Positions 13,517 through 23,460 of a stretch of 64,000 nucleotides of DNA are shown here, one piece after another (the stretch's first letter is position 1; every line of letters begins with the position of its first letter). The translations under genes and the position numbers were made by a program. This stretch comes from Microbacterium helvum (GTDB taxonomy: Bacteria; Actinomycetota; Actinomycetes; Actinomycetales; Microbacteriaceae). The notes beneath the pieces are model-generated. The model was not told where the DNA came from and ran no database searches. It worked only from the letters and a program-made list of their open reading frames with translations. The stretch covers positions 62,001-126,000 of the forward strand of contig NZ_JACXZS010000012.1 of the NCBI RefSeq assembly GCF_014779795.1. The letters run 5' to 3'.

Positions 13517-14353
13517 TCATGCCAACACCGAGATGACGCGCAGGATCGCGCCGAGGTCGTCGTTCGCGGCGGACGCCGACGCAGGGGAGTACCCGGCGAG
13601 CGAGGCTCCGACCAGCGGCACGCGTGCCCGCAGCGCCGACACCGCGGCGGTGAGCTCTGCGACCGTCACTCCGAACGGCTCGGGGTGGGCGTTGCCGGCG
13701 ATCTCGGCCGGGTCGAGCGCATCGATGTCGACGTGGACGTAGACGGCGTCGGCGCCGGTGGCGAGCACCGCGTCGGCGAGGGCCTCCGCGTCGCGCAGCG
13801 CCTCGACGGTGAGCGCCGAGATGCCGCGCTCGGTCACGACGTCGAGCTCGGGGTCGTCGAACGAGCGCGCGCCGCCGACGACCACGCGCCCGGGGGCCAC
13901 GGTGCCCTCCGGCAGCGAGAGGCCGGGCTCGCCGTCGCCGATGACGGCGCGCAGCACCATGCCCGCGAACGCGCCGGAGGGCGAAGAGTCGGGCGAGTTG
14001 AGGTCGGGGTGGGCGTCGATCCACACGACCGCGAGCCCCGGGGCGCGTCGTGCGGCGTGGGCGATCGGCGCGAGTGCGATGCCGCAGTCGCCGCCGATCG
14101 TCAGCACGGCCTCGTCGGGGGCGGCGGCGTGGTGCGCGTCCAGCGCTTCGGCCACGAGCCCGTGCACCCGCTGCAGGGCGCTGAGCCGATGGATGCCGCT
14201 TCCCAGCGACTCTCCGGCCTCCATCGGCACCTCGAGCACCGTGGTGGCCGCTCGCGGCAGGTCGCCGGCGATGGCCTGTGCGCCGTCGATCAACTGCATC
14301 GCCCGCGACGAGGGACTGCCCTGCCACTGCGGGACCACGAGGTATCGCGTCAT
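13517..14353 (-). CDS. arginase/agmatinase family protein with a Cys in the first metal motif
   Basis: Ureohydrolase-fold protein of 278 residues. The Mn-binding motifs are DAHPD (113-117) and DIDALDP (209-215). The first motif, normally GGDH(S), reads GGDC (87-90), so the His ligand of the first manganese is replaced by Cys. The protein may therefore use a different metal site or substrate than arginase (agmatinase, formiminoglutamase or guanidino-acid hydrolases are related). The ATG at 14351-14353 is preceded by GAAGAT and six bases, compatible with a leaderless start. Confidence 0.8.
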   Translation of the reverse strand: MTRYLVVPQWQGSPSSRAMQLIDGAQAIAGDLPRAATTVLEVPMEAGESLGSGIHRLSALQRVHGLVAEALDAHHAAAPDEAVLTIGGDCGIALAPIAHAARRAPGLAVVWIDAHPDLNSPDSSPSGAFAGMVLRAVIGDGEPGLSLPEGTVAPGRVVVGGARSFDDPELDVVTERGISALTVEALRDAEALADAVLATGADAVYVHVDIDALDPAEIAGNAHPEPFGVTVAELTAAVSALRARVPLVGASLAGYSPASASAANDDLGAILRVISVLA

Positions 14354-20647: not shown

Positions 20648-21619
20648 GTGCCCGCACACCCTGACGCCGCATCCGTCGCCGCCCCGACGGCGTGGTCGTG
20701 GCGCCTGGCCCCGGCTCTCGTGGTGTGCCTGGCCGCCCCGGCGTTCTTCGTGGCGCGCCTGCCGTGGCTCGGCTGGTCGCTGCTGGCCGTCGGCCTCGTC
20801 ATCGCCTGGCTGATGGAGCGAGGGGATGCCGCCGGCCACCCGCTCCCGTCGGCAGCGCCTGCGACACCGCACGACAGCACCGCCCGCGTCCGTTCCTCGG
20901 TGCTGTCGCGCGGTCTCGACCCGGGGATCGCGACCGGCCCGGCCGCCGGCATCCGATCGCCCTCCCTCACCCGCGACCTGTCGCTGATCGCGGCGGGACT
21001 CCTCGTGGTGAGCGCGATCTCGCTGAAGGCCGAGCTCGACGATCTCGCGATGGTTCGCTTCGCGCTCGCCCTCGGGGGCGCGGTGGCCGTGCCGTACGTG
21101 CTGACGCGGTGGGTGTACCGAGACCGCGCGATCCGGTTCCCCTGGCGCGGCGGCGGCCGGTGGACGACCTTCCAGTGGGTGTGGCTGGCGGCGGTGCTGG
21201 TGCTCGGCTGGCTGATCCTGCCGTTCTACTTCATCACCTCCGGCGTGTACCTCAACTGGCCCGTCGTCGACACGCCCGAGCTGATCGCGCGGCTGTTCGT
21301 GGGCGTCGGGGCGGTCGGCATCTGGGACGAGCTGTTCTTCATCTGCACGTGCTTCGCGCTGCTGCGGCGGCACTTCCCGTTCTGGCAGGCCAACGTGCTG
21401 CAGGCGGTCGTGTTCGTGTCGTTCCTGTGGGAGCTCGGCTACCAGGCGTGGGGTCCGCTGCTCACGATCCCGTTCGCGCTGCTGCAGGGGTTCATCTTCA
21501 TGAAGACGCGCTCGCTCGCCTACGTCGTGACGGTGCACCTGCTGTTCGACGCGGTGGTGTTCCTGGTGCTCGTGCACGCGCACAACCCCGGTCTGCTCGA
21601 CCGGCTGTTCCTCGTGTGA
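20648..21619 (+). CDS. CPBP-family membrane protein, incomplete active-site motif
   Basis: Integral membrane protein of 323 residues with about eight helices. The C-terminal half (WDELFFICTCFALLRRHFPF, then FVSFLWELGYQAWGP, and VHLLFDAVVF) follows the CPBP/Abi (Rce1-like) intramembrane protease pattern. The usual first motif EExxxR is D-E here, and the second and third motifs are only partly matched, so protease activity is doubtful. The GTG start is preceded by AGGAG at six bases. The third gene of the trmB-MFS-CPBP unit. Confidence 0.7.
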   Translation: MPAHPDAASVAAPTAWSWRLAPALVVCLAAPAFFVARLPWLGWSLLAVGLVIAWLMERGDAAGHPLPSAAPATPHDSTARVRSSVLSRGLDPGIATGPAAGIRSPSLTRDLSLIAAGLLVVSAISLKAELDDLAMVRFALALGGAVAVPYVLTRWVYRDRAIRFPWRGGGRWTTFQWVWLAAVLVLGWLILPFYFITSGVYLNWPVVDTPELIARLFVGVGAVGIWDELFFICTCFALLRRHFPFWQANVLQAVVFVSFLWELGYQAWGPLLTIPFALLQGFIFMKTRSLAYVVTVHLLFDAVVFLVLVHAHNPGLLDRLFLV

Positions 21620-21654
21620 GCGGGACTGCCCAGGCCCTGCCCAGGCCCGTCGGC

Positions 21655-21660
21655 TAGGCT
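21655..21660 (+). promoter_or_regulatory. -10 box TAGGCT (gdx riboswitch transcript)
   Basis: TAGGCT lies 25 bases upstream of the guanidine-III aptamer, so transcription would start about 20 bases before the aptamer. Confidence 0.45.
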
Positions 21661-21685
21661 GGCACGCGGATCCCCGACAGGATCC

Positions 21686-21726
21686 CCGGACGACGGATCA
21701 GTACCCGGTGAGCGACAAGACTGGCC
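21686..21726 (+). promoter_or_regulatory. guanidine-III (ykkC-III) riboswitch
   Basis: The sequence holds the conserved blocks of the guanidine-III aptamer in order: CCGGACGACGG, then GTACCCGGT, then ACAAGACTGGCC. This compact pseudoknot class senses free guanidinium, and the gene behind it is a Gdx-type guanidinium exporter, the expected target. The AGGAGG ribosome binding site (21727-21732) starts right after the aptamer, so control is probably at translation initiation: ligand binding would free the site. Confidence 0.88.
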
Positions 21727-21739
21727 AGGAGGCACAGTC

Positions 21740-22060
21740 ATGTCGTGGGTCATCCTCATCCTCTCGGGCGTCCTCGAAGCCGTGTGGGCGACCGCGCTGG
21801 GCAAGTCCGAGGGCTTCACGAAGCTCTGGCCGAGCGTCGTCTTCGGCGTCGCGCTCGTGGCGAGCATGGGCGGTCTCGCGTGGGCGATGCGCGACATCTC
21901 CACCGGCACCGCCTACGCGGTGTGGGTCGGCATCGGGGCGGCGCTGACCGTCGCGTACGCGATGATCACGGGCGCCGAGCCGTTCTCGATCGTCAAGCTG
22001 CTGCTGATCCTGGGCCTCGTCGGCTGCGTCGTCGGCCTCAAGCTCGTCGGCCACGAGTGA
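21740..22060 (+). CDS. gdx: guanidinium exporter Gdx (SugE-type SMR protein)
   Basis: Small multidrug resistance family protein of 106 residues with four membrane helices; works as an antiparallel dimer exchanging guanidinium for protons. It has the central Glu13, with Gly10 and Trp16, in the first helix (LSGVLEAVWATALG) and the GKSEGFTKLWPS loop that marks the Gdx/SugE branch rather than EmrE-type drug pumps. AGGAGG lies 7 bases upstream of the ATG. The guanidine-III riboswitch directly upstream supports the substrate. Confidence 0.95.
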   Translation: MSWVILILSGVLEAVWATALGKSEGFTKLWPSVVFGVALVASMGGLAWAMRDISTGTAYAVWVGIGAALTVAYAMITGAEPFSIVKLLLILGLVGCVVGLKLVGHE

Positions 22061-22153
22061 GGCCGCCGCCGCGCGCGGGCGTGCGGCATCCCTCCCGCGC
22101 CGGTGGCGGGCCGCGCCTGCGCGCCGCAAGCGTCCTCGCGTGCGGCGGTGCGC

Positions 22154-22159
22154 CATGAT
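22154..22159 (+). promoter_or_regulatory. -10-like CATGAT (ClC gene)
   Basis: CATGAT lies upstream of a short leader with GAGAGAGGAA, five bases from ATG 22186. Confidence 0.3.
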
Positions 22160-22185
22160 GGGAGCGCCCTGAGAGAGGAACCGGG

Positions 22186-23460
22186 ATGCCTGAGACCAGC
22201 GCCGCGCCGTCGCCCAGCGTGAAGAGCCTTCTCATCATGTCGGTGCCGGCGCTGCTGATCGGCGCCGTGTCGGCCATCGTGCTGTGGCTGCTCGACGAGG
22301 CGTCAGGTCTGCTGCAGGACCTGCTGTGGACGACCATGCCCGGCTGGTTCGGCGCGACCGAGGCGACGCCGTGGTGGATCTTCACGGTGCTGACGCTCAC
22401 CGGTGCGATGGTCGGCCTCGTCGTGTGGCTCGTGCCCGGGCACGGCGGGCCGGACTCCGCCACGACGGAGCTGGCGGAGACCCCGCCGCCGCTCGGCGCC
22501 CTGCCGAGCATCCTGCTCGCCGTCGTCATCGGCCTGGCCGGCGGGGTGAGCCTCGGCCCCGAGAACCCGATCATCGCGGTGAACGGCGCGATCGCCGTCG
22601 CCGCGATGGCCCGGTTCGCCAAGGCGGTGCCGCCGACGGCGGTGATGACGCTCGCGACGTCGGCGACGATCGGCGCTCTGTTCGGGACCCCGGTGGCCGC
22701 CGCGCTCCTTTTCACGGGGGCCGTCGCGGCGGTGAAGGGCGGGGGAGCGCTGTGGGACAAGCTCTACCTGCCGGTCGCGGCCGCCGGCGCCGGCGCGGTG
22801 ACCATGCACCTCCTGGGGGGCAGCTCGCTCGCCTTCCACATGACGCCCATCGGCCAGGCCGACGGGCTGATGCTGCTGGAGGGGCTGCTCGTGGCCGCCG
22901 TCTCGGCCGCCGCCGGGATCTTCGCGGCCTGGGCGCTGCCGCACGCGCACCGGCTGTTCCACAGTCTGCGCAACCCGCTGCTCATCAGCCTCGCGGGCGG
23001 TGTCGTGCTGGGCCTGCTGGGCATGCTGGGCGGCCCGATGACCCTCTTCAAGGGCCTGGAGCAGACCGGAGAGCTGATCAACAACCCCGAGGACTACACG
23101 GCCGGGCAGCTCGCGCTGTGGGCGGGCGTCAAGGTCCTCGCCCTCGTGATCGCCGCTGCGGCGGGATTCCGCGGCGGACGGATCTTTCCCGCCGTCTTCG
23201 TGGGCGTGGCGATCGGGCTGCTCGCGCACGCGCTGCTGCCCGGCATCCCGGTCTCGCTCGCCGTCGCGTGCGGAGCCCTGGGCATCGTGCTCGTCGCGAC
23301 CCGGGACGGCTGGATGGCGATGTTCGTCGGCGCTGCCCTGGTCGGCGACCCGATCGTGCTGCCGATGCTGTGCATCATCGTGCTGCCGGTGTGGCTGATC
23401 GTCACGAAGGCGCCTGAGCTCGTCGTCAAGAAGCCGGCCGCTGCGGCCGCCGCACCCTGA
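22186..23460 (+). CDS. ClC-family ion channel/transporter
   Basis: Membrane protein of 424 residues and about ten helices of the chloride channel family. Conserved anion-path motifs are visible in divergent form: PGHGGPD (GSGIP-like), GVSLGPENP (GxEGP-like, with the gating Glu position inside GPE) and GFRGGRIFPAVFVG (GxFxP-like). Divergence from classical ClC motifs means the ion is uncertain (chloride or fluoride). A Pro/Ala/Lys-rich cytoplasmic C-terminus ends the protein. Followed by an independently transcribed MscS-type channel. Confidence 0.85.
   Translation: MPETSAAPSPSVKSLLIMSVPALLIGAVSAIVLWLLDEASGLLQDLLWTTMPGWFGATEATPWWIFTVLTLTGAMVGLVVWLVPGHGGPDSATTELAETPPPLGALPSILLAVVIGLAGGVSLGPENPIIAVNGAIAVAAMARFAKAVPPTAVMTLATSATIGALFGTPVAAALLFTGAVAAVKGGGALWDKLYLPVAAAGAGAVTMHLLGGSSLAFHMTPIGQADGLMLLEGLLVAAVSAAAGIFAAWALPHAHRLFHSLRNPLLISLAGGVVLGLLGMLGGPMTLFKGLEQTGELINNPEDYTAGQLALWAGVKVLALVIAAAAGFRGGRIFPAVFVGVAIGLLAHALLPGIPVSLAVACGALGIVLVATRDGWMAMFVGAALVGDPIVLPMLCIIVLPVWLIVTKAPELVVKKPAAAAAAP

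Follow-up and report, generated by a model that had tools for sequence, protein, structure and literature searches.

A guanidine-III riboswitch upstream of a Gdx-type exporter gene in Microbacterium helvum, and a possible start-codon complement within its core strand

Guanidine-III (ykkC-III) RNAs were first reported upstream of emrE and speB (PMC2864571), and PMC5696562 and PMC12186494 describe the mechanism of the class as less well established, or as predicted at the level of translation. Among the exporters, Gdx-Clo surrounds its substrate with five residues, of which W16 separates Gdx from Qac proteins, where the position is Gly or Ala (PMC7695847). The locus described here lies in a 64,000-nucleotide stretch of the M. 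helvum genome (the window). Like the T. fusca guanidine-III RNA (5NWQ), the window RNA gives a full-length Rfam match and has a P1/P2 H-type pseudoknot with equivalents of C6, G7 and G17, and it stands upstream of an SMR exporter gene as in the first report of ykkC-III. It departs from the Rfam consensus and the crystallised 41-mer in a shorter third strand, a P2 mismatch and an extra 5' hairpin. The Shine-Dalgarno sequence (SD) of the window lies directly after P2, whereas the T. fusca ribosome binding site is placed 16 nt from the riboswitch 3' end (PMC5696562). We read the element as a guanidine-III riboswitch that acts as a translational ON switch for a Gdx guanidinium/proton antiporter, with a probability of roughly 0.93. 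It is a guanidine-III riboswitch of a kind known since 2010–2017 and is ordinary for its class.

The aptamer and the exporter gene

A cmscan of the whole window returned two Rfam matches above gathering thresholds, one tRNA and RF01763 (Guanidine-III) at 21665–21729 on the plus strand (53.0 bits against a gathering threshold of 36, E = 3.9e-8), the latter complete over model positions 1–67 of 67. The first-pass annotation had proposed a guanidine-III riboswitch upstream of a Gdx exporter and had named a covariance-model search as the check; the match is significant and, together with the ligand-contact positions and the Gdx residues in the next gene, bears the proposal out. Its start at 21686 coincides with the 5' end of the crystallised core, and its span covers core, SD and ATG but leaves out the 5' hairpin, which Rfam includes and because of which the Rfam element begins 21 nt earlier. 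Its placing of AGGAGG at the last aptamer base is correct to within 1–3 nt, as the SD occupies 21727–21732 (+), P2 ends at 21726 and the Rfam model at 21729.

The 5' hairpin, GGAUCC-CCGACA-GGAUCC (21668–21685, +; arms 21668–21673 and 21680–21685 in the predicted fold), lies 5' of the crystallised core and is covered in part by Rfam stem 1. The pseudoknot helix P1 (21686–21708, +) pairs CCGG at 21686–21689 with CCGG at 21705–21708 and is present in the window though outside the Rfam structure line. P2 (21696–21726, +) pairs GAUCAGU at 21696–21702 with ACUGGCC at 21720–21726, interrupted by a single A/C mismatch (21697/21725), and a gap in the alignment leaves the third strand one base short of the Rfam consensus. 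P1, P2 and the equivalents of C6, G7 and G17 were placed on the window from their positions in the T. fusca structure. The equivalents of the three bases fall inside the conserved core, C21691 (C6) and G21692 (G7) within the ACGA at 21690–21693 (+) and G21701 (G17) within P2, and all three correspond to ligand contacts (PMC5696562). The core strand together with the start of the P2 3' strand forms GACAAGAC (21714–21721, +), the commonest core and the proposed OFF-state partner of the start-codon region. Across 172 distinct aptamers, drawn from 214 loci with the core pattern of which 4 did not parse, all four P1 pairs are kept in 168 (137 CCGG/CCGG, 30 GCGG/CCGC), and the third pair of P2 reads A-U in 109 of them and C-G in 61. 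Both-sided changes are thus seen at the first pair of P1 and the third pair of P2. From its family membership the ligand of the window RNA would be guanidinium. Guanidine-I gave no match in the genome, and a Rfam scan of the window found no class II or IV.

Downstream, gdx (21740–22060, +) encodes a 106-aa Gdx-type SMR protein and predicted guanidinium exporter (PF00893, 71.7 bits against a cut-off of 23.7). Its reading frame holds the Gdx substrate-site residues E13, W16, S42, Y59 and W62, as in Gdx-Clo and unaltered in 6 aligned genus sequences; E13, W16 and the GKSEGF motif (residues 21–26) are where the first-pass annotation had them. Among solved structures the closest sequence is that of the SMR protein in 6wk5 and four other entries, aligned over residues 1–102 with 1–102, and 6wk5 is presumably Gdx-Clo. 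The best NCBIfam match is the SugE equivalog NF008512, yet at 79.6 bits it falls under the curated cut-off of 126, so we do not name the gene SugE. The genome has one SMR (PF00893) match and one guanidine-III match, and the single SMR gene means that the product is probably a homodimer. Guanidinium/proton antiport and export specificity are what family membership would predict for it. Directly downstream of gdx lies a gene for a CLC-family ion channel protein (22186–23460, +; NF002971, 427 bits), followed by MscS-like, SulP and alkyl-sulfatase-like genes, and an arginase-family match (PF00491, 111 bits) is found about 7.5 kb from the riboswitch at 13568–14182 on the minus strand.

The association of RNA and exporter extends across the genus. 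Guanidine-III RNAs were found in 38 of 59 genus genomes, in 100 of 199 family genomes (E <= 0.001; 93 above the cut-off) and in 51 of 396 phylum genomes sampled, in searches whose filters lose some weak matches. Within the genus, 38 genomes have both the RNA and a Gdx relative, three have only SMR genes (G164, G224, G253, where these are paired), none has the RNA only and 18 have neither. Two loci named as Microbacterium, L269 and L278, carry the aptamer core with no SMR gene downstream, and tblastn with Gdx across 8 kb at each found no match; they are possible orphan riboswitches and argue against a perfect association. Another, L246, has a leader almost identical to that of the window. G328, a genome of the class, carries a pair of guanidine-III RNAs (loci L160 and L207), of which one precedes an arginase-family gene and the other an SMR gene.

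Signals and predicted fold of the leader

P2 is separated from the ATG at 21740 by 13 nt. A pattern scan of 21500–22300 found no terminator-like site, and terminator-based control was dropped on that result. The position of the SD immediately after P2 and the lack of a terminator-like site in this interval make translation the likely level of control. No sigma-70 consensus promoter was found in the same interval; a -10-like hexamer, TAGGCT (21655–21660, +), would have transcripts begin close to where the aptamer starts, and in 114 upstream regions 89 of 112 TANNNT matches occupy the same six positions. Upstream of TAGGCT are two copies of CTGCCCAG 11 nt apart (21626 and 21637; 21626–21644 in the window), and across the family CTGNNCAG turns up upstream of gdx riboswitches near these two positions. 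A YTGNNCA pair spaced by 11 occurs in 17 of 114 upstream regions, against a shuffle mean of 0.02, and the tandem repeat is a possible operator or activator site. A genome-wide regulon marked by tandem CTGNNCAG was rejected, the strict pattern giving 2 matches in the genome against 1 when reversed.

In the predicted ligand-free fold, 21712–21726 pairs with 21731–21746 in a hairpin of -21.5 kcal/mol, tied for third strongest among 192 parsed leaders (median -12.9). Its 3' side, the proposed masking arm GGCACAGUC-AUG-UCGU (21731–21746, +), holds the start codon, with U and G paired and A mismatched, and the last two SD bases; the other four of the six SD bases are unpaired. Within the 5' side, GACAAGAC is complementary, at 7 of its 8 bases, to the GUC-AUG-UC that spans the start of gdx. 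The free fold is predicted at -49.1 and a constrained ON-like fold at -27.2 kcal/mol, energies that leave out pseudoknot, triplex and ligand, and in the ON-like fold the SD is still mostly paired by prediction. These energies gave no support to an equilibrium switch. With the OFF fold favoured by more than 20 kcal/mol and the SD paired in the ON-like fold, switching would need to be kinetic and to occur during transcription.

A model for the switch may be drawn from this fold. Going by the solved T. fusca relative, guanidinium would sit between G21692 and G21701 and lock P1 and P2. In its absence GCGACAAGACUGGCC (21712–21726) would pair with GGCACAGUCAUGUCGU (21731–21746), and this OFF pairing would mask the start codon along with the final two SD bases. 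Ligand bound while the RNA is being transcribed would keep GACAAGAC within the pseudoknot and leave the start codon free, upon which Gdx would be made and guanidinium exported. We rate at a little under even odds the central part of this model, that the sensing strand hides the gdx start codon when guanidine is absent.

GUC before the start codon across leaders

GUC stands directly before the start in 85 of 114 family and genus leaders (71 of 100 distinct), 40 of 66 leaders outside the family (38 of 64 distinct) and 18 of 33 SMR leaders from 39 further loci. The start codon was placed by the position of E13, independently of its context. The first set derives from 129 loci, of which 11 fall outside the aptamer pattern and three lack a parsed SMR start (an SMR gene missed by the parser in L014, another protein in L049 and L069), leaving 115 and, with one long leader removed, 114. 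The second derives from 128 further loci (the phylum sample and 80 named), 29 outside the pattern, 10 without an SMR parse and 89 parsed; from these were taken out six arginase-family leaders wrongly caught by the pattern and 17 Microbacteriaceae, the latter presumed such from their names or from kinship among the matches. By named genus or group, at least one leader has GUC in 31 of 41, and 21 of 41 have only GUC leaders. In 173 dereplicated leaders the conserved columns are -3 (G, 140), -2 (T, 140), -1 (C, 158), +4 (T, 103) and +5 (C, 154), while columns -6 to -4 lack conservation and -6 is close to random (47/46/41/39). Although the spacer differs between leaders (17–27 nt in all but one of 115), the conserved columns keep their place at the start codon.

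Background starts carry GUC in 4 of 75 and 1 of 76 cases, a crude comparison in which some candidate starts come from spurious ORFs. Among SMR genes lacking the aptamer pattern upstream (16 from 20 examined of 21 listed) GUC is found in one (L339), although 8 of the 16 are second members of SMR pairs whose starts overlap the partner's stop, which makes them a weak control. GUC is also absent from all three readable aptamer-bearing leaders of paired SMR genes (L342, L343, L346).

The same trinucleotide precedes genes of other kinds. In eight loci the gene after the aptamer encodes a small membrane-like protein (82 aa in L069, for which a Pfam search gave no match), with GTC before the start in five (L040, L049, L069, L096, L099) and not in L076, L085 or L086. 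In three others the downstream protein begins VELTFEAG/MELSFEAG..WWSY, with GTC in L165 and L190 and not in L182. In L243 (Streptomyces musisoli) the aptamer lies directly before a metallo-beta-lactamase-superfamily gene (PF00753) with GTCATG, and the downstream gene of L309, likewise unrelated, also starts after GTC. GUC was found in none of six arginase-family leaders (L160 assigned by PF00491, the other five by related N-termini), in four of which the gene is more than 120 nt away.

On the aptamer side the main parser demanded a GACANGAC core, so the constancy of the core strand in the 173 leaders is by construction. Going by Rfam match coordinates, those cores that could be read among 40 loci outside the pattern differ from it, examples being GCAAAGAC, GAAAAGAC and GACGAC, which rules out invariance of GACAAGAC. 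Thirty of these loci have an SMR gene, six others encode the small membrane-like protein, and L202, a match below the cut-off, has no readable gene. GUC accompanies the GACANGAC core in 134 of 198 leaders and other cores in 10 of 30 (Fisher p = 4.5e-4, relatedness not controlled). The lower rate with other cores is in the direction that the start-codon model predicts. However, most other cores keep the GAC that faces GUC, so that the model by itself leaves part of the difference unexplained.

The predicted pairing probability between start codon and core averages 0.587 in family leaders, exceeding 0.5 in 87 of 114; shuffling the flanks lowers the mean to 0.205 and the share above 0.5 to 19%. 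In outside leaders it averages 0.399, exceeding 0.5 in 32 of 66, and after shuffling 0.177 (18%). The main register on GACAAGAC is -3:C8, -2:A7, -1:G6, +2:A4, +3:C3, +4:A2 and +5:G1. Swapping platforms between genomes barely lowers the pairing (0.573 against 0.587), as would be expected when neither arm varies much. Two edge pairs alone rise above the swaps, 9:-4 (the observed value reached in 6 of 500 swaps) and -1:+6 (2 of 500), with relatedness not controlled. With swaps near-neutral and these two pairs only, a proof of the OFF helix by covariation failed.

Alternative readings and significance

That the RNA match arose by chance or is degenerate and senses no guanidine would fit the P2 mismatch and the third strand one base under model length, but is highly improbable given a score of 53 against 36 bits, the ligand contacts, the conserved neighbour and the genus-wide co-occurrence. 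A guanidine-III riboswitch might instead be turned off by SD masking through less conserved structures, or act on mRNA stability, with GUC serving another role. This would accord with the published view, in which the RNA, on folding with its ligand, frees the ribosome binding site (PMC5696562), and with the protection against RNase E scanning that a 2025 review adds (PMC12186494), as well as with the leaders that have no GUC (26 of 66 outside the family, 15 of 33 in the further set and 20 of 30 with other cores). Against it, GUC forms a sharply delimited block at the start codon and follows the start over variable spacers, and it is rare both at other starts (4/75 and 1/76) and before aptamer-less SMR genes (1/16, with 8 overlapping their partner). 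We consider this reading a real possibility, somewhat short of even odds.

Alternatively, GUC-AUG may have been kept through common ancestry of gdx starts alone and have no pairing with the aptamer. Most of the downstream genes are orthologous and the swap tests reveal little covariation, both of which would be expected from shared descent. Yet the adjacent columns -6 to -4 are without conservation, and GTC also precedes unrelated genes (membrane-like 5/8, VELTFEAG-type 2/3, L243 and L309), but in none of the six arginase-family leaders; we therefore regard descent alone as unlikely. Start-codon masking by the sensing strand is the reading we propose, and its general form is that many gdx-linked guanidine-III riboswitches share one platform in which GACAAGAC doubles as an anti-start-codon for GUC-AUG-UC, so that the sensor is also the switch strand and the second gdx codon is partly fixed by regulation. 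Its chances we place close to one half, on the lower side.

The start-codon complement may be the new part of an element that is otherwise known. Among the passages covered by the literature search, which come from papers other than Sherlock and Breaker 2017 or Richards and Belasco 2021, none described a pairing of GUC-AUG with GACAAGAC. For M. helvum, the element and its gene together yield a prediction at the level of the ligand for this genome. The GUC-AUG complement names the exact bases to change and, if true, would explain how one short strand can both bind guanidinium and silence a start codon.
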